From Fimbriimonadaceae bacterium (GTDB lineage: Bacteria > Armatimonadota > Fimbriimonadia > Fimbriimonadales > Fimbriimonadaceae): a stretch of DNA of 48,216 nucleotides. The notes beneath the pieces were generated by a model. It was not told the DNA's origin and did no database searches. It saw nothing but the letters and a program-made list of their open reading frames with translations. The translations under genes and the position numbers were made by a program. Positions 8,545 to 21,392 of this stretch are shown in pieces; position 1 is the stretch's first letter, and every line of letters begins with the position of its first letter. The stretch is taken from NCBI GenBank assembly GCA_019638835.1, contig JAHBTC010000006.1:1-48216 (forward strand), given 5' to 3'.

Positions 8545-10707
8545 ATGAAACCTTTCGTTTCACGGATTCGAGGTCCCCTCGTTCCCATCGCCGTTCTTGG
8601 CGCAATTATTCTTGGATGTGGAGGTTCTGGCGGCTCATCGGAAACGACAGGTGGTTTTCGTGGCCTAACGATAACACCGACAAACTCCAAAGTAACACTT
8701 CCCGCAAGTCGATCATACGGGTCGTTATCTGAGTTGAGCGTTTGGACCTCTGCCGGTGAGGGCGCGCCCGCTACTTCGGGAGACGTCCAAGTCAAGGTGT
8801 TTAACAACGGCCCTCAATACACGGAGGTCCGCGACGACGACGACAAACTTGTCGCTTCCGGGTTCATCGGTACCGGCCGAACCGAACTAGGATTCGAATC
8901 CACCGCCGAGGTCTTGGTTTACTTTGGCATCGGTGGCCCGCTCCAACGAGGAAGCAATGGTTCGCAAAAAGTCGTGTTGGACAGCGTGAAGAACCTTCCT
9001 GGCTTTAGCGGCGTTGTTACGGCGGTCACCGATAGCTTCAACTCGAAAGGCTACATCGACAACGAAGACACCGCGATCAAGTCAGCCGTGGCCGCAGTGC
9101 GCGATTCAATTTTGACGAGCCGGGAGCGTCGCGAAGCGACGTCTCGGGGCCCGGATGTAGATCCCTCTCGATTTGCCAGTGGACTTGAGATCAACAATTC
9201 GGTCAACGACCAGATTCTTCTGACCAACACGGCGTTTCGACGAGGCTATCTTTGGCTCAAACGAACCGGATACAAAGATTCCGAGGGTGTGACCCACGAC
9301 TTGGATGTTAGCCTCGCGTCGAAAGAGGTAGCGCTGCCAGCACGGTACGGCGGCACGATTGACAGTGCGACCGGGCTGATCAATAGTCAATACAATTGGG
9401 AGCCCGTTACGATGCCGAAGTTTGATGTCACATCGGACTTACCTGGGATTGAGAACGAAGTTGACGTGTTCTATGAGTTGACAACCGTAGGCATTGGATG
9501 GCTACCTGGAGACTTCGACGAACTGACAGGCGCACAGATCACGAAGTGGGAAGAAATCGTCTATCAGACGGTGTACCTGGACTTCTACCTTCCGGTGTTC
9601 GCGAATCTCGTGATCCCGCTCGATGGCGCCGGCATGGATAGTGTCAGTGGCTATGCCGGACAAAGTTCAGCGGCAAGGGCGTTCTTCACCAATGCTCGAA
9701 CCAGTATGCCAAACGTCGCTTCCGAAGTCGCCAAAGGCAACTTTACGACTGGGCTCTCCCAATTCGTCACGTCTTCACAACTCCCAACCGTGGAGAAGAT
9801 GACGGCGGACATCATGATCTCTTGGGGTCGTCAGTTCGGAACCAATCTCTTCAAAGATGAAGAGGAACTTCATAACCGAGTTGGGCGCGCAAGGGTTGCC
9901 ATCAATATGCTGGATCTCGTAGACGCCACCGATGATATGGCACCAATTGGCGATCTCCGGAGCGCAGATCAAGCGAACATCTTCCGCATCACAAGTAGCC
10001 GCTCTGCCGTAAAGATCACGCCCGACGAGGCGGAAGTAGGAATCTCCGAAACGACCGACATTCGAGCAACAATCAAAGACAAGCAAGCGGGGGCGACTTA
10101 CCGATACGAGTGGTCGCTCAATACGACCAACTTCTTCTTGCAGGATGCCGGAGGAAACTCTACAGATGAATCACCGGGAGGAGTTCTGAAGACATCATAC
10201 GACAAGGTGTTCATCGGCAACCTCACGTTTGCGGTTGGGACACCAACAATCACGTGCCGAGTCTATATCGGTGACACTTTCATAGGGACGGCAAACACCC
10301 GCGTGGAATTCAAGGAAAGCGTGAATACGACGCCGGGCCGCTACAAAATCGTGGGCGGAGTTTTCGACAAGGATAACAATGGAACGTTCAATCTTCACTA
10401 CGGATTGGTAGCGGAAGTTGATGTCAAGAAGGATGCAGATCACTACTCAATGGTGGCGGAGTACGAGACTGGCGAGACGATCAAACGGGTGAACTGGGCG
10501 GCGACAAGCCCGCCCTATTGGCCGCTTTACTCGGAACTGAAAGCTGGCCAACCTCCGAACACCTATTGGATCGTGATTGACGGCACGACTACGGCTGGAG
10601 GAAATCTAACGGAAGCCCAAGCAAGAGAGCAACTCGCGAGCGAAATCGCCAGGTTGGAAGTCAAGTACAACGGGATGAAAGTGAAGACCAAGGTCTTCTA
10701 CGATTAG
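8545..10707 (+). CDS. Large lipoprotein of unknown function, paralog A
   Basis: A 720-aa predicted lipoprotein; the lipobox LGAIILGC gives Cys25, followed by a GGSGGSS linker. By eye roughly half of its residues match the protein at 12028-14178 over the full length. The best conserved blocks are NSVNDQI..TNTAFRR, the Trp-rich region near 320-350 (KWEEIVYQTVYLDFYLP) and FANLVIPLDG. Residues ~480-590 look like an Ig/PKD-type beta domain (ATYRYEWSL ... TPTITCRVYIG). A short C-terminal domain (600-720) ends with a helix of about 25 residues. No enzymatic motif is visible. It has its own terminator at 10720-10755. I do not recognise the family. Confidence 0.85.
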   Translation: MKPFVSRIRGPLVPIAVLGAIILGCGGSGGSSETTGGFRGLTITPTNSKVTLPASRSYGSLSELSVWTSAGEGAPATSGDVQVKVFNNGPQYTEVRDDDDKLVASGFIGTGRTELGFESTAEVLVYFGIGGPLQRGSNGSQKVVLDSVKNLPGFSGVVTAVTDSFNSKGYIDNEDTAIKSAVAAVRDSILTSRERREATSRGPDVDPSRFASGLEINNSVNDQILLTNTAFRRGYLWLKRTGYKDSEGVTHDLDVSLASKEVALPARYGGTIDSATGLINSQYNWEPVTMPKFDVTSDLPGIENEVDVFYELTTVGIGWLPGDFDELTGAQITKWEEIVYQTVYLDFYLPVFANLVIPLDGAGMDSVSGYAGQSSAARAFFTNARTSMPNVASEVAKGNFTTGLSQFVTSSQLPTVEKMTADIMISWGRQFGTNLFKDEEELHNRVGRARVAINMLDLVDATDDMAPIGDLRSADQANIFRITSSRSAVKITPDEAEVGISETTDIRATIKDKQAGATYRYEWSLNTTNFFLQDAGGNSTDESPGGVLKTSYDKVFIGNLTFAVGTPTITCRVYIGDTFIGTANTRVEFKESVNTTPGRYKIVGGVFDKDNNGTFNLHYGLVAEVDVKKDADHYSMVAEYETGETIKRVNWAATSPPYWPLYSELKAGQPPNTYWIVIDGTTTAGGNLTEAQAREQLASEIARLEVKYNGMKVKTKVFYD

Positions 10708-12027: not shown

Positions 12028-14178
12028 ATGAGGCATAAACCCAGGCCCACCATCGGCGTAGCGATGACCGGGCTACTTGCACTTCTAATCATTGCCTGTG
12101 GAGGAAGCGGTGGCGTCGCCACTCCTGAAGAAGGATTCCGCGGATTCACCGAGACTCCCGTGGATGTCGCGGTCTCGCTCCCAGCGGGTGGAGCGGTCCC
12201 CCCGATGACCGAACTGGTCGCTTGGACCTCACTCGGTGAAGAGAAGCCTGACGGGGCCGGCAACGCGAACCTTGAGGTCTATAACGACGGCCCGCAATTC
12301 GCATCCGTGCTCGACGCAAATGGCGAGATGGTCCTTGGCGGCTTCGTTGGTGGAGACCGCAAGTCGCTTGACACAACCTCGACGGCCGAAATGTTCACGT
12401 ACTTTGCTCTCGGTGGTCCACTACACCCCGGACCCGATAGCCAAGAGATCTTCCTGAACGGAATCAAGGAGTTGGTTGGATTCGCAAACGTGATCGCGGC
12501 CGTTGAGGCGTCAATTGCCGCTAACGGATACGTAACTGCTTCTGACCCCGGCGTGAAGGCCGCGATTGATGAGGTACGTAACTCCGCACTCGCGGGCAAA
12601 GGGCGCAATGCCGAAACACGTGGCCCCGAAGTGTCGCCCGAGGGCGGTGCCAGCGGACTCGATATCAACGATTCGGTAGACGATCAGATTCAAATCACGA
12701 ACACCGCTCTTCGCCGCAGTTACGCTTGGCTTGAGCGCACGGGCTATAAAGACGATAATGGCGCGACGCACGAGATGAAGGAAGCGATTCGTGACCTGTG
12801 GATTGACGTGCCGACTCGTTACGGCGGCAAGGTGGACCGGATGACCGGCTTGATCCAGGGCCAATACCCGTGGACGCCAATCGCATCCTCACCTATTCCG
12901 GTTCTTTCTGATCTCGCTTCAGTGGAGAACGAAACCGAGGTCTACTACAAACTCACGACGGTCGGAGTCGGTCGCTACGAGGGCGATTTTGACGACCTGA
13001 CCCCCGAACAGTTCAACAAGTGGAAGGAGATCGTTTATTGGACGGCTTATCTCGACTTCTACATGCCCATTTACGCGAACCTCGTCCTGCCCATGGACGG
13101 GACGGCATTCGATAGTCTTGCTGAGTTCGCTCTGACCAACAGCAATGCCCAACAGTTCATCGCGGGAGCCCAAAACTCCATGCCTGAACTTCTAGACCTC
13201 ACCGCTCGCGGCCAATTCCCCGACGGTCTTCGCTCGTTTGTGACATCGCCCCAAACCGCGACCGTCACTACACCGGTCTCCATGCTCGTCGTCACGGAAT
13301 GGGGACGATCCACAGGCAAAGAATTGTTCTCGGGTGATAAGGAACTCATCAATCGGGTTGGCATCGGTGCCCGTTCGATCGGGATGCAAGACCTTGCATC
13401 TGTCATCCAGTTGATGGCACCTTTTGATAGCTTCGCGAGCGCCGACCAAGCCAATGTCTTCGAGATCACGAGTTCGAGGGCTGCCGTCAAACTCGTGCCC
13501 GAAGCGACCGAGATTGGTATCTCAGACGTCACGGATATCAAGGCCGTCATCAAGAACAAGAGCACCTCCGCCACTTACCGCTATGAGTGGTCCGTGACCG
13601 GTGAGTTCTTCTTGAACGACGGACATGGTGGAAGCACGGATGAGTCTCCGGGTGGAATTCTCAAGTCCGTAGATGACGAAGTGTTCATCGGCAACTTGAC
13701 AAAGAATGCGGGAACTCCAACGGTTACCTGCTCTGTCTACATCGGTAACCAACTCGTGGGCAAGGCGAACACTCGCATCACATTCCGCGAAAACATCAAG
13801 AACCTGAACGCGAAGTTCCGCGTCGAGGGGACAGTAGTGGACAACGATGGCAACGGTTACTGGAACTACCGCACATGGGTGATTGCCGAGGTGTCGAAGT
13901 TCGAAGATGCCGCGCACTACGCATTGACCATTGACGACGCGGATGGCAAGAACATCTTGCGACGGAATTGGTCGCGCGACTACAAGTTTGCCGTGCGCGA
14001 CGAGGAAGTGTGGATGAAACAACCGGAAGGGACTTTCTGGATTGTTTACGACGGCATCAGTTCGGCGTACGGTTTTAGTTCGAGGGAACAAGCCTTAGAG
14101 GACATGGCCGACCGAATAGCATCATTGGAGCGCAAGCACCAAGGTGACGTTCTGGAGGCAAAAGCGTTCCTCGAATAG
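12028..14178 (+). CDS. Large lipoprotein of unknown function, paralog B
   Basis: A 716-aa predicted lipoprotein (lipobox LLIIAC, Cys24, then GGSGGVA). It is collinear with the protein at 8545-10707, from the FRGFTETPVD segment after the lipobox to the C-terminal helix, including DSVDDQIQITNTALRRSY and KWKEIVYWTAYLDFYMP. The Ig/PKD-like region is at about 480-590 and contains GGSTDESPGGILKS, nearly identical in both copies. The two genes are separated by two unrelated genes. ATG 12028 is used; a Met at residue 13 (12064) would give a shorter signal peptide. A strong terminator follows at 14193-14226. Confidence 0.85.
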   Translation: MRHKPRPTIGVAMTGLLALLIIACGGSGGVATPEEGFRGFTETPVDVAVSLPAGGAVPPMTELVAWTSLGEEKPDGAGNANLEVYNDGPQFASVLDANGEMVLGGFVGGDRKSLDTTSTAEMFTYFALGGPLHPGPDSQEIFLNGIKELVGFANVIAAVEASIAANGYVTASDPGVKAAIDEVRNSALAGKGRNAETRGPEVSPEGGASGLDINDSVDDQIQITNTALRRSYAWLERTGYKDDNGATHEMKEAIRDLWIDVPTRYGGKVDRMTGLIQGQYPWTPIASSPIPVLSDLASVENETEVYYKLTTVGVGRYEGDFDDLTPEQFNKWKEIVYWTAYLDFYMPIYANLVLPMDGTAFDSLAEFALTNSNAQQFIAGAQNSMPELLDLTARGQFPDGLRSFVTSPQTATVTTPVSMLVVTEWGRSTGKELFSGDKELINRVGIGARSIGMQDLASVIQLMAPFDSFASADQANVFEITSSRAAVKLVPEATEIGISDVTDIKAVIKNKSTSATYRYEWSVTGEFFLNDGHGGSTDESPGGILKSVDDEVFIGNLTKNAGTPTVTCSVYIGNQLVGKANTRITFRENIKNLNAKFRVEGTVVDNDGNGYWNYRTWVIAEVSKFEDAAHYALTIDDADGKNILRRNWSRDYKFAVRDEEVWMKQPEGTFWIVYDGISSAYGFSSREQALEDMADRIASLERKHQGDVLEAKAFLE

Positions 14179-17875: not shown

Positions 17876-17950
17876 GGGCGGTTAGCTCAGCGGTAGAGCA
17901 CTTCGTTCACACCGAAGGGGTCGCTGGTTCAAATCCAGTACCGCCCACCA
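17876..17950 (+). tRNA. tRNA-Val (anticodon CAC)
   Basis: A complete 75-nt cloverleaf. The acceptor GGGCGGT pairs with ACCGCCC (17940-17946), the D arm contains AGCTCAGCGGTAGAGCA, the anticodon stem CTTCG/CGAAG holds TTCACAC with CAC at 17908-17910, and the T arm contains GGTTCAAATCC. The CCA end is encoded (17948-17950). A T-run (GTTTTTC) follows directly. The 3' end is repeated at 19636-19656. Confidence 0.97.
17930..17950 (+). repeat. attL-like repeat: tRNA-Val 3' end
   Basis: The last 21 bases of the tRNA gene recur at 19636-19656 with a single C-to-T difference, in the same orientation. Integrases commonly use tRNA 3' ends as attB sites and leave such a copy at the far end of the insert. 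Confidence 0.75.
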
Positions 17951-18118
17951 GTTTTTCTTCTATGTGAACGCAGGCCCCGTAACTTTGGTTATGGCGTTAA
18001 TACTAGGGTGACGACTCATAGTTCAGAGTTCGCTCTCCGCGTGATATTCCCATAATCTGACTAAACGTCGGTTGGGCCAAGCACACCACGTACTGATCTT
18101 TACGTTCAAAATAGGCCT

Positions 18119-19444
18119 GTGAACTCGGACGATGCGAACAAAACTATCCTAACTCTTGTTCACCGAGTGCGAAGCCCGGCCGGCGACGATGCGCTCTTTG
18201 CTAACGCGGAGTCAATTGAGGCGAACTCTCACGCCTTTCTCGCAGCTATTCATAAGGGCATGGCGGAGCTGCACATGGAAGCGGTAGTCAACATAATCGA
18301 CATTCAAGAGCGGCTTTTGAAGATCGACCAGGCGAGCGAAGAGGCCAGAACGCTTTCGATTGACTTATTGCCATGGTATCACGTTAACAACGAACTGGCT
18401 TGGACCGGCTTGCAACGTAAGCGACATATCGTAAGGAGAATGTGCGGCTTCAAGCCAAGGCCACGGCTCGCAAAGTCAAACCCAGAGGGTGTATTCAGCG
18501 TCATCGAGGAAATCAACTCTGACCCGCTCAAATTTGCGATGTGGGCTGATGCAACCTCGTTCATTGATGTGAGCGACATTTTGGTCATCGATCCACTCTC
18601 TGGATCTCACACACTTCTGGAAGTAAAGCAACAAGACGAAAGTGTGTGGGCTTTTCCTAGTTCTGTACCGAAAGAGTCACTTCGAGAATTTCAGCTACAT
18701 ATCACCGGTCCGGCGAATAAAGCGGAAGCAAAGACACAAAGGCTAAGACGTCAACTGAAGCGCATGACGCAGATTGAGAAGATTATTGCGACAGACACCG
18801 GGATCGATCCATTTTTAAATCAACCGGTACTTATTGCAGAAAGCAATACTGAAGAAAGATACTTTCACGAGGACCTTGCAGTACTGATGGCTCGGGCAAG
18901 ACTCCACGGACATGCTTTTGATTTGATTGATAACTGTCTTTGGATTGGAGTCTACTATGATCAAGATCCGAGGCAACAACTCGGGTTTGCAGTTAGTGCT
19001 GCTGGCGTATTTAGCGACGGTAGCGAGCATGGCTTCCAAGCGATGATACACTGTGCATTAGCGGAAGCCAGGACATATTCCCAAGTTGCTAGTCACTGGT
19101 TAGCTCTGCCTGTTTTCTCATTTGATTTGTCCGACGAGGATGTGTTTCATCTAGTCTCTGGAATTGCCAATGTAAGGATGTATTTACACTGGGATTTATG
19201 GGCACAGTTTCTTGAATGCTTTGGAGGCAGCTTTCGGTGGTTAAGCGACAAAGAGTATCGGAGCACGACTGAGTATCAGTTGTATAAGACACCTGATAGA
19301 TACACAAATGGCATTCCGTACGTTACCTTTGGGGACACATCTTTTGTACCATCTAGCACGCAGATGATTCGCATCTTTACGGATATGAAACGTCCATCCA
19401 TGTTAGCAGAATTAGCGTTCAAACAATCGCAGATTCTTGAATAA
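18119..19444 (+). CDS. Unrecognised protein with PD-(D/E)XK-like nuclease motif
   Basis: A 441-aa cytoplasmic protein starting at a GTG; no family is recognised. Residues ~130-170 resemble a PD-(D/E)XK nuclease core: an upstream acidic helix (VIEEINSD), then Asp150/Asp153 in DVSDILVID, a short turn (PLSGSHT), and Glu168-Val-Lys170 in LLEVKQQ, the D...ExK pattern. A basic amphipathic helix follows (~205-222, KTQRLRRQLKRM). The rest (230-441) is alpha/beta with hydrophobic strands such as LWIGVYYD, compatible with a specificity or sensor domain. It is the only gene of the tRNA-Val islet and its base composition differs from its surroundings. A restriction or antiphage role fits but is inferred; it could be a nuclease-fold protein of another kind. 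Confidence 0.7.
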   Translation: MNSDDANKTILTLVHRVRSPAGDDALFANAESIEANSHAFLAAIHKGMAELHMEAVVNIIDIQERLLKIDQASEEARTLSIDLLPWYHVNNELAWTGLQRKRHIVRRMCGFKPRPRLAKSNPEGVFSVIEEINSDPLKFAMWADATSFIDVSDILVIDPLSGSHTLLEVKQQDESVWAFPSSVPKESLREFQLHITGPANKAEAKTQRLRRQLKRMTQIEKIIATDTGIDPFLNQPVLIAESNTEERYFHEDLAVLMARARLHGHAFDLIDNCLWIGVYYDQDPRQQLGFAVSAAGVFSDGSEHGFQAMIHCALAEARTYSQVASHWLALPVFSFDLSDEDVFHLVSGIANVRMYLHWDLWAQFLECFGGSFRWLSDKEYRSTTEYQLYKTPDRYTNGIPYVTFGDTSFVPSSTQMIRIFTDMKRPSMLAELAFKQSQILE

Positions 19445-19635
19445 GAGCCCCTTTCGATTGAACGCTCGCGCTTTCGCTTACAGTGAGTAACTCGTCCAGT
19501 ATGGATGCCACCGACTGCTTCACACTTCGCACTTCTGATGTGAGAGAGAATCTGAGGAAAGGCATTGGTATTCCGTATCCGACAGTACACACTAAACCAA
19601 GCTTCACGTCGTGTTGCCCCGAGGTAGCCTGCGTG

Positions 19636-19656
19636 CAAATCCAGTACCGTCCACCA
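19636..19656 (+). repeat. attR-like copy of tRNA-Val 3' end
   Basis: A 21-base copy of the tRNA-Val 3' end including CCA, with one C-to-T change, so it could no longer form the full acceptor stem. Weaker similarity to the T-arm continues about a dozen bases upstream (GAGGTAGCC against GGGGTCGCT). No other tRNA parts are present. Confidence 0.7.
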
Positions 19657-19663
19657 TTAGTTT

Positions 19664-20434
19664 TCAGTTAAGGTGCCCGAACGAGCCGTTCCAAGGTGCC
19701 GCCTGCGGAAAGAGTCGCTCGATGTAGGTAATGCGCGCCGGAATCTGCCGTCGCAATCGCTCCGCAACATCTTGCGGCAGTCGCTCCGGGTGATGCACTA
19801 GGGTCACCGCGAAGAAAGCCGACTCCGTCAGGTCCTCACCTGCCGGCAGCCGGCTCGCATAATCGGTCACGAACCCTGGGTCGCTCTCCTGCGCTGCCTT
19901 CCAACCCCGCGACCCGGCATGTTCCGCATCCCCAGTCGCATGAACGCTTTCGTGAAAGATCGTCTCCTCCAGGTCATGCGTGCTGATCCGCTTGGCCATG
20001 TTCTCAGTGTAAAGAACGATCAGCCCTCGGTCGCTGAATGCGGTGGCGTCCCCGACGTTGATGACCACTCGTTCAACACCTCGCCGCAAAACATGCGGAA
20101 TCCGGCCCAGCCGAATCCCTGCCTGCTCCACGTACTTATTCGATTCGGCTTCGGAACCTACACGGTGATGGACCGCGAAGTGCACCTTCACCTCGTCGCG
20201 ATAAGTGCTCTCAAACTGAAACGCTTCCAGAAAGAGTTCGCCTTCCCCGGTCTTGTCCGGCATTTCGGCCGCGCCTTTCTTCAGGAACGTAGCCTGCTCC
20301 CACAGCGAAATGTCGGACTCGCGAATGAAGTCGAAATCTGTCCCGACCACGGAGCTGGGGTAGAGCGGTGGTGCGGGGTCAGCATTTTGCCCCACCACTA
20401 AGAAGAGGAGAACCGTTCCGATCATTGGATTCAC
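19664..20434 (-). CDS. Secreted putative zinc metallopeptidase (HExxH)
   Basis: A 256-aa protein with a signal peptide (1-15). It contains His161-Glu162-Ser-Val-His165 (IFHESVHATGD), a zinc-binding HExxH helix. About 35-40 residues later DYASRLPAGEDLTES offers Glu200/Glu204 as third ligand, as in gluzincins related to the anthrax lethal-factor fold (ATLF-like). The segment VVINVGDATAF and GLIVLYTENM form the strand preceding the helix in that fold. The ATG at 20434 is used; a second Met three codons later is equally possible. The gene lies just outside the tRNA islet and is divergent from the duplicated channel-gene 5' end at 20482-20528. Peptidase activity is inferred from the motif. Confidence 0.72.
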   Translation of the reverse strand: MNPMIGTVLLFLVVGQNADPAPPLYPSSVVGTDFDFIRESDISLWEQATFLKKGAAEMPDKTGEGELFLEAFQFESTYRDEVKVHFAVHHRVGSEAESNKYVEQAGIRLGRIPHVLRRGVERVVINVGDATAFSDRGLIVLYTENMAKRISTHDLEETIFHESVHATGDAEHAGSRGWKAAQESDPGFVTDYASRLPAGEDLTESAFFAVTLVHHPERLPQDVAERLRRQIPARITYIERLFPQAAPWNGSFGHLN

Positions 20435-20481
20435 TATAACACGGAGACAACTACCTTATGAAGTTTCCCACATCCAGCGGC

Positions 20482-20528
20482 GTGTGCTAGCTTCTTCCCT
20501 GTGACGCCCGGCACCTACAACCGTCGTA
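20482..20528 (+). repeat. Relic copy of the potassium-channel gene 5' end
   Basis: These 47 bases align without gaps to 21346-21392, which hold the leader and first codons of the channel gene. GTGTGCTA, then a GTGACGCC start, encode VTPGTYNRR here versus VTPGSYTRR there. The relic frame stops soon after. The 864-base offset contains the Kelch-like gene. Confidence 0.6.
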
Positions 20529-21183
20529 GGTCTAGTTCATTGATCTTTGACCATGTGGAAGAAACCAGATCGAACAACCATGGCTGATGATTCGGCACTA
20601 GTTGATCATCAACATCAACCAGATTTCCTCCCCAAACGGCAATTGAACTTGATCTCGGCAAGTACAAGGCTGAGTGATTATGTAACCAGCTGGGCTCTTC
20701 GCCCCGTACTGTAATCTCCGATATCATTAGATCTGGGAGGCCCAAGCGGTAGATCGGAGTAGTTCCTGGAAATCGGTCTCCATGATATCCAAGTCGGCCG
20801 ATGATGTAGATCGCCTCCGGATCTCGAATATCGCCAACAAGAGTAGCGGTATGAAAATCGGTGGGAGGAAAGATGTCAACCGGATATCCATAGATTGCAA
20901 CCGATCCGTCCGGAGCCGTGATAATCACATCGTTGTAGATGTAAAAATCGGGGTCATAGGAATCCTCGTGTTCGCCAGCGATCCAAATGTGTCGTTTCGG
21001 TTCCTGAAACCTTTCCACAAGTGTGCAGGTCATGCCAAAGCGCTCAAAACACCAAACTGGGTCACTCCCTCCATGTTCTACTTTGATACTGTATGCTGAC
21101 AATTGGTTCCGCACTGCTTCTTCCCAGAATGATTCGGCCATGCGCTCGGGGTTTGCAGTACCTCTTTTTACTAGTCTGGTCAT
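20515..21183 (-). CDS. Kelch-like hypothetical protein
   Basis: A 222-aa protein of a Kelch-type family. Repeating beta-blade signatures are visible: WIAGEHEDSYDPDFYIYND, then PPTDFHTATLVGD followed by IYIIGRLGY, and HSALYL...IAVWGGN near the C-terminus. No signal peptide. A good ribosome site (AGAGGT) precedes ATG 21183. Its last codons (DLRRL and stop) lie inside the relic of the channel-gene start at 20482-20528, so its present 3' end was created by the insertion or duplication. The region is A+T-richer than its neighbours. Function unknown; Kelch folds usually mediate protein contacts. Confidence 0.8.
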   Translation of the reverse strand: MTRLVKRGTANPERMAESFWEEAVRNQLSAYSIKVEHGGSDPVWCFERFGMTCTLVERFQEPKRHIWIAGEHEDSYDPDFYIYNDVIITAPDGSVAIYGYPVDIFPPTDFHTATLVGDIRDPEAIYIIGRLGYHGDRFPGTTPIYRLGLPDLMISEITVRGEEPSWLHNHSALYLPRSSSIAVWGGNLVDVDDQLVPNHQPWLFDLVSSTWSKINELDLRRL

Positions 21184-21216
21184 GAATAGTTACCTCTTTG
21201 TGAACGAAACATTATT

Positions 21217-21232
21217 ATTGAGTAATCTCAAT
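21217..21232. promoter_or_regulatory. Inverted repeat upstream of Kelch-like gene
   Basis: ATTGAG-TAAT-CTCAAT, perfect 6-bp arms, 34 bp upstream of the Kelch-like ATG in an AT-rich leader. Could be an operator or mRNA hairpin; no regulator is evident nearby. Confidence 0.3.
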
Positions 21233-21345
21233 CAATCGAATTGACGAAGGCATCAAGATTGAGCTTGCATGAAAGCGAACGAAGTTCATAAGTCTCAGTT
21301 TAACATCATCAGGTAAGCGAGTCAAACTCCACGAGCACTAGCCAA

Positions 21346-21392
21346 GTGTGCTAACGTCTCCCTTGTGACGCCAGGCTCCTACACCCGCCGCC
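21346..21392 (+). repeat. Intact copy of the channel-gene 5' end (partner of 20482-20528)
   Basis: Start region of the functional channel gene, aligned base for base with the relic 864 bp upstream (roughly three quarters identical by eye, near-identical around the GTG start). Confidence 0.6.

Follow-up and report, generated by a model that had tools for sequence, protein, structure and literature searches.

Downstream of the tRNA-Val(CAC) gene in the 48,216-nucleotide stretch of DNA analyzed here (the window), a single gene is flanked by the tRNA gene on one side and by another copy of the tRNA 3' end on the other. This arrangement raises the questions of how the intervening segment, here referred to as the islet, came to lie at this site, and what its gene, here referred to as the cargo, encodes.

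A tRNA-Val gene and the displaced copy of its 3' end

Using ARAGORN, we found that tRNA-Val(CAC) is the only tRNA gene in the window. Its last 21 bases, CAAATCCAGTACCGCCCACCA, are found again on the same strand as CAAATCCAGTACCGtCCACCA (Table 1), in agreement with the preliminary description of this locus; the two copies differ by one base and at the edge of the T-loop. We reject that the repeat arose by chance, given that a 21-base match allowing up to one mismatch is expected ~3e-8 times within 2 kb and that neither strand of the window has a third site within 5 mismatches. Across the 2.74 Mb of the genome, which is a draft assembly in 207 contigs (each species was represented by one genome), a degenerate pattern of the 21-mer with up to 2 mismatches gave one extra match, which is a tRNA-Val-like 3' end on contig C101. 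The 60 bases that precede the distal copy are no more similar to the 5' part of the tRNA than random DNA is (26% of random segments score at least as high). The distal copy thus represents a 3' fragment rather than a second tRNA gene, and a decayed tandem duplication of the tRNA gene is rejected. Altogether, the locus has the signature of Islander islands, i.e., an intact tDNA with a displaced 3' fragment downstream in the same orientation.

The G+C content of the islet is 47.8%, compared with a mean of 55.2 ± 1.9% for windows of the same size (z = −4, lowest 0.2%), and a recount of positions 19141-19200 gave 22 G+C per 60 bases; both values bear out the initial impression that the DNA between the repeats is richer in A+T than its flanks. 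The islet contains a single full-length gene of 441 codons, as had been noted. The true start of this gene may differ from the GTG because its relatives are longer at the N-terminus. In codon usage, it deviates only mildly, ranking 4th by deviation among 35 open reading frames. The islet had also been described as lacking an integrase; indeed, neither the list of open reading frames nor tblastn with eight recombinases from this and other genomes revealed a tyrosine recombinase in the region 17951-21364. The tblastn matches were at chance level, and we therefore reject a hidden integrase pseudogene, both within the islet and in the flank to its right. Likewise, integration and transfer genes are absent from the islet, and it has no recognizable attP arm sites.

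Table 1. Features of the tRNA-Val(CAC) locus in the window
Feature	Coordinates	Strand	Basis
tRNA-Val(CAC), intact, target gene	17876..17950	+	ARAGORN
Proximal 21-base repeat copy, from T-loop to CCA, putative att core	17930..17950	+	
Islet, 1,706 bp, 47.8% G+C, bounded by both repeat copies	17951..19656		
Cargo open reading frame, 441 aa, GTG start, exact start uncertain, candidate member of a PD-(D/E)XK-like family	18119..19444	+	
Candidate catalytic motif D153-x14-E168-x-K170, codons 153-170	18575..18628	+	Alignment of 9
Distal 21-base repeat copy, 1 mismatch, displaced tRNA 3' fragment, putative outer att site	19636..19656	+	
Right-flank gene, 256 aa, outside the islet	19664..20434	−	

Among 61 genomes, the only relative of the right-flank gene is found in a species of the same genus (G002), at a different locus. 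Further to the right, a K+-channel gene starts at 21365, 3.4 kb behind tRNA-Val(CAC). The first bases of this gene, together with the region upstream of it (21346-21390), recur as a 45-bp repeat (82%; 20482-20526) beyond an A+T-rich Kelch-like gene (20515-21183, minus strand); it looks as if the Kelch-like gene had been inserted at the 5' end of the channel gene with a duplication. Elsewhere in the window, two lipoprotein-like open reading frames of ~720 codons (8545-10707 and 12028-14178) have similar N-termini (GCGGSGG...GFRG) and seem to be paralogues in tandem; no Pfam model matched the second one.

The tRNA-Val locus in related genomes

Based on a single-sequence search and a profile search, the islet gene is present in one of 291 genomes of the phylum and missing from the other 290, including two of the same genus. 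The preliminary description had reasoned that the same gene and repeat in all relatives of the genus, with matching codon usage, would speak for a stable ancestral locus. We found neither the gene nor the 3'-end repeat behind tRNA-Val(CAC) in either of the two same-genus genomes and, because the gene is unique among the 291 genomes, we reject that the islet is such a locus.

For the proposed comparison with an empty site, the repeat is missing in both same-genus relatives; we found no genome in which the same two flanks occur without the islet. A strict empty site is unobtainable because the same-genus relatives have other genes behind tRNA-Val and, in G002, the right-flank gene lies elsewhere. 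Two other genera provide approximate empty sites. In G011, nadB lies ~60 bp behind tRNA-Val(CAC), and nadB is found near tRNA-Val in several genera; in G012, a K+-channel gene that is 71% identical to that of the window starts ~0.45 kb behind tRNA-Val(CAC). The surroundings of tRNA-Val are generally fluid, and the flanking genes differ even among species of the same genus.

In four relatives, a gene for a tyrosine recombinase lies directly behind tRNA-Val(CAC), arguing that this tRNA gene is an integration target. In three of them, which represent three different genera (G003, G004, and G022), the recombinase has 324 codons and starts ~93 bp past the tRNA gene; the proteins of G004 and G022 are ~95% identical, and the G003 copy is frame-shifted. 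The fourth relative (G050), which belongs to another family, has a more distant recombinase at the same place. Related recombinases are also found directly behind tRNA-Val(GAC) in G050 and behind tRNA-Met in G013. Using blastn, we found that the inner sequence of the islet shares nothing with the recombinase islands of G003, G004, and G022. We therefore reject that the islet is the same element as these islands and, because the DNA beside the tRNA is dissimilar, their recombinases cannot be named as the enzyme that moved the islet.

The element of G003, G004, and G022 reads as a recently spreading tRNA-Val element. At all three loci (L043, L033, and L045, respectively), a conserved leader before the recombinase gene repeats GCACTTCGTTCA, which is the sequence of the tRNA anticodon loop, and a CGACCACCA end. 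The genes after the recombinase in G003 and G004 are nuclease-like by eye and have no Pfam match. In G013 (L041), an open reading frame that is DUF2971-like by eye lies at most 0.7 kb behind tRNA-Val(CAC), at the end of a contig.

Tandem copies of tRNA-Val-like sequences were observed in two relatives. In G015 (L040, 9387-9791), a GIY-YIG gene (Pfam E value 2e-17) fills 288 bp behind tRNA-Val(CAC) and is bounded distally by a near-copy of the 3' half of the tRNA, which ends a degenerate tRNA-like sequence. In G022 (L045, 9732-11436), two tRNA-Val(CAC) genes lie 1.6 kb apart, of which the upstream one has changes in the T-loop and stem, and the pair is followed by the recombinase element; this arrangement resembles accretion or a tRNA copy in decay. 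Because both genomes have such copies with DNA between them, this gene does become duplicated within the family, and the repeat of the window could have arisen by local duplication, either by replication slippage or from a decayed tRNA duplication, with the cargo gene entering by ordinary recombination. However, only the 3' 21 bases are repeated in the window, the DNA before the distal copy matches the 5' part no better than random DNA, and the cargo family is borne by mobile elements. We therefore consider a local duplication unlikely.

The cargo protein and its relatives

Searches of Pfam, PADLOC, PHROGs, and NCBIfam gave no match for the cargo protein, and no PADLOC model matched six of its relatives either. 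With this protein alone, initial scans of GTDB and IMG/VR and a tblastn search of phages found nothing. The first relatives came from tblastn against plasmids, with 22-24% identity, up to 85% query coverage, and E values down to 1e-12; with profile-guided scans, we then recovered four further loci in GTDB and eight in IMG/VR. These relatives are real but distant, with about 20-25% identity. A literature search for their accession numbers found none.

In an alignment of nine sequences, about seven of which are clearly distinct, D153, E168, K170, R208, Q212, D271, and C273 are among the invariant residues. Nucleases of the PD-(D/E)XK superfamily have a D and a (D/E)-x-K at neighboring strands with flanking helices. 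The cargo has this pattern: a D followed by E-x-K, conserved in all nine aligned sequences, is located at strands 154-158 and 163-172 of the predicted model. This AlphaFold2 model, which was made from only nine sequences, has a mean pLDDT of 71.8 (the single-sequence fold reached 35.9); around the motif, it is arranged as helix-strand-strand-strand-helix-strand, with the motif in a β hairpin. The cargo thus shares D-x14-E-x-K in a predicted β hairpin, and a helix-strand order like that of the common core, with the PD-(D/E)XK superfamily; however, no family model or solved fold matched it. Searches with the model in Foldseek (PDB and BFVD) and VIA-align gave no convincing match to a nuclease or any other fold, and sequence searches of the PDB also gave none. 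The PD-(D/E)XK fold is therefore a putative assignment. Altogether, the invariant D-x14-E-x-K motif suggests that the cargo is probably a nuclease of the PD-(D/E)XK type.

The genomic settings of the relatives, taken from annotation, open reading frames, and Pfam, point to their carriage by mobile elements, among them plasmids and phage-plasmids of Enterobacterales, together with defense genes. At nine of the loci read, AbiH or Abi_2 is encoded immediately upstream of the relative, as identified by Pfam (PF14253 or PF07751; L130, L132, L138, L142, L146, and L149) or by annotation (L133, L136, and L150). The relative directly follows an Abi_2 protein on Pantoea plasmids and in Erwinia oleae, and it directly follows AbiH on Klebsiella/Enterobacter plasmids with phage-like genes and an integrase and in an E. 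coli Qin-type prophage. At least 80% of the gene is present in 64 of 5,426 complete E. coli genomes; these occurrences seem to be one prophage lineage and are counted as a single case of AbiH linkage. Thus, the Abi linkage represents about three independent settings (AbiH in Qin-type prophages, AbiH on phage-plasmids, and Abi_2 in Pantoea/Erwinia). In other settings, the relative is located 28 bp behind the integrase of a P2-like prophage (this label and "Qin-type" are ours and are based on the neighboring genes), on a Rahnella plasmid with a tyrosine recombinase on one side and a DUF2971 gene on the other, and upstream of a Schlafen/AlbA_2 protein in Albitalea.

In Pseudomonas bubulae (L156), tRNA-Ser(CGA) marks one end of an att-bounded island, in which the relative is the gene closest to the tRNA. 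At the other end, ~9.3 kb away, 25 bp of the tRNA 3' end are repeated (96%) beside a tyrosine integrase. As in the window, a member of the same cargo family comes first behind a tRNA gene, and repeats of the tRNA 3' end form the bounds. However, this island is 9.3 kb long and has an integrase and other genes, the tRNA is a different one, and the cargo is 25% identical over the matched part. The P. bubulae island has the arrangement of the window, with the integrase retained.

No AbiH or other Abi neighbor was found at the window gene or at the Thiothrix, P. bubulae, and Rahnella relatives; the recurrent linkage to defense genes on mobile elements is a property of the relatives, not of the window gene. 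The hypothetical proteins linked to AbiH or Abi_2 (e.g., WP_000982358) in Qin-type prophages, phage-plasmids, and Pantoea plasmids are homologous to the cargo over most of the protein and have the same invariant motif, but they are ~20% identical overall, have a longer N-terminus, and are paired with Abi, whereas the window gene stands alone. Judging by the AbiH/Abi_2 company of its relatives, the cargo has, on balance, probably an anti-phage function. Alternatively, the cargo may be a nucleic-acid enzyme of another kind, or a selfish gene for the maintenance of the mobile element, rather than a defense nuclease, in line with the lack of a clear match in the fold searches and of an Abi neighbor at several relatives. 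Given that D-x14-E-x-K is invariant and that the AbiH/Abi_2 adjacency recurs in unrelated elements, we regard this alternative as the less probable one, albeit one with some weight.

The settings of the relatives also bear on how the gene reached the tRNA. One nuclease-like gene flanked by a tRNA repeat, as well as the G015 GIY-YIG gene between tRNA-Val and its 3'-end repeat, would fit a homing-type spread, in which the nuclease cuts the T-loop region of tRNA-Val and a cassette with a 3'-end copy recombines in without an integrase. However, the relatives occur at many unrelated sites (plasmids, prophages, and tRNA-Ser) beside Abi genes, which fits a defense cargo, and the G015 repeat is part of a longer, degenerate tRNA-like sequence. 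These observations make homing a very improbable origin.

Origin of the islet and its significance

Islander islands consist of a tDNA and a displaced fragment with the island between them, and the finder requires an integrase and at least 2 kb (PMC4383910). The islet shares with them the intact tDNA, the displaced 3' fragment in the same orientation, and the foreign DNA in between. In contrast, Islander islands have an integrase and a length of 2-200 kb, while the islet has no integrase and is 1,706 bp long; surveys of this type would discard it for both reasons. In tDNAs, crossovers commonly fall into two zones, one of which is the T-loop/T-stem side (PMC4383910). A CIME is an element that keeps its att sites and has lost the genes for integration and transfer (PMC5704250). 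The islet likewise has two att-like sites, recognized as sequence, and none of these genes; however, it has one gene only, and any descent from a conjugative or mobilizable element (ICE/IME) or mobilization by a partner would be hypothetical.

Based on the displaced tDNA fragment and the att-like sites without integration and transfer genes, we suggest that the islet is likely what remains of a tRNA-integrated element, CIME-like and without an integrase, in which one probable anti-phage nuclease gene was kept. In the preliminary description, the islet was thought to be decayed or satellite-like and perhaps to keep one defense cargo. This proposal is supported by the presence of the gene in 1 of 291 genomes, the absence of the repeat at tRNA-Val(CAC) in both same-genus relatives, the tyrosine recombinases behind the same tRNA in four relatives, and the settings of the cargo relatives, one of which is the first gene in the Pseudomonas tRNA-Ser island, with others beside AbiH/Abi_2.

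We infer an integrase-mediated origin. According to this model, a mobile element would have integrated site-specifically at the 3' end of tRNA-Val(CAC), and the tRNA gene would have been restored by the tRNA end that the element brought along. The original 3' end would thereby have been displaced 1.7 kb downstream and would later have gained one mismatch. As an effector, the cargo would cut nucleic acid upon infection.

Lacking an integrase, the islet is either decayed or can be moved only in trans by a tyrosine recombinase directed at tRNA-Val. In the first case, a larger tRNA-Val island could have lost its integrase end by deletion, leaving a dead remnant in which the distal repeat is the old outer end. 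The Pseudomonas relative occupies exactly this place in a 9.3-kb island with the integrase at the far end, deletion of the middle and the far end of such an island, sparing the repeat, would yield the structure of the window, and the single mismatch of the distal copy points to age. However, the sequence does not separate a dead remnant from an islet that can be mobilized in trans, and the gene is fully open, arguing that any loss from the islet was not part of a general decay. We therefore propose this special case of the CIME-like remnant only tentatively.

The islet represents a small, clear tRNA-bounded insertion of a type that is missed by finders such as Islander. The cargo may outweigh the islet in importance: it has an invariant nuclease-type motif, and its family is distributed across plasmids, phage-plasmids, prophages, and tRNA islands in Pseudomonadota and present in this distant genome. 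The family is often found beside AbiH/Abi_2, yet no Pfam, NCBIfam, or PADLOC model matched it in the searches run, and this uncatalogued family is the most interesting part of our findings. The copies in E. coli make the defense idea directly testable. We speculate that the cargo could represent an as yet undescribed anti-phage nuclease family, whose members act alone or with AbiH/Abi_2 and are carried by tRNA islands, prophages, and phage-plasmids, and that integrase-less single-gene islets may be a form of defense-gene carriage that island finders discard.
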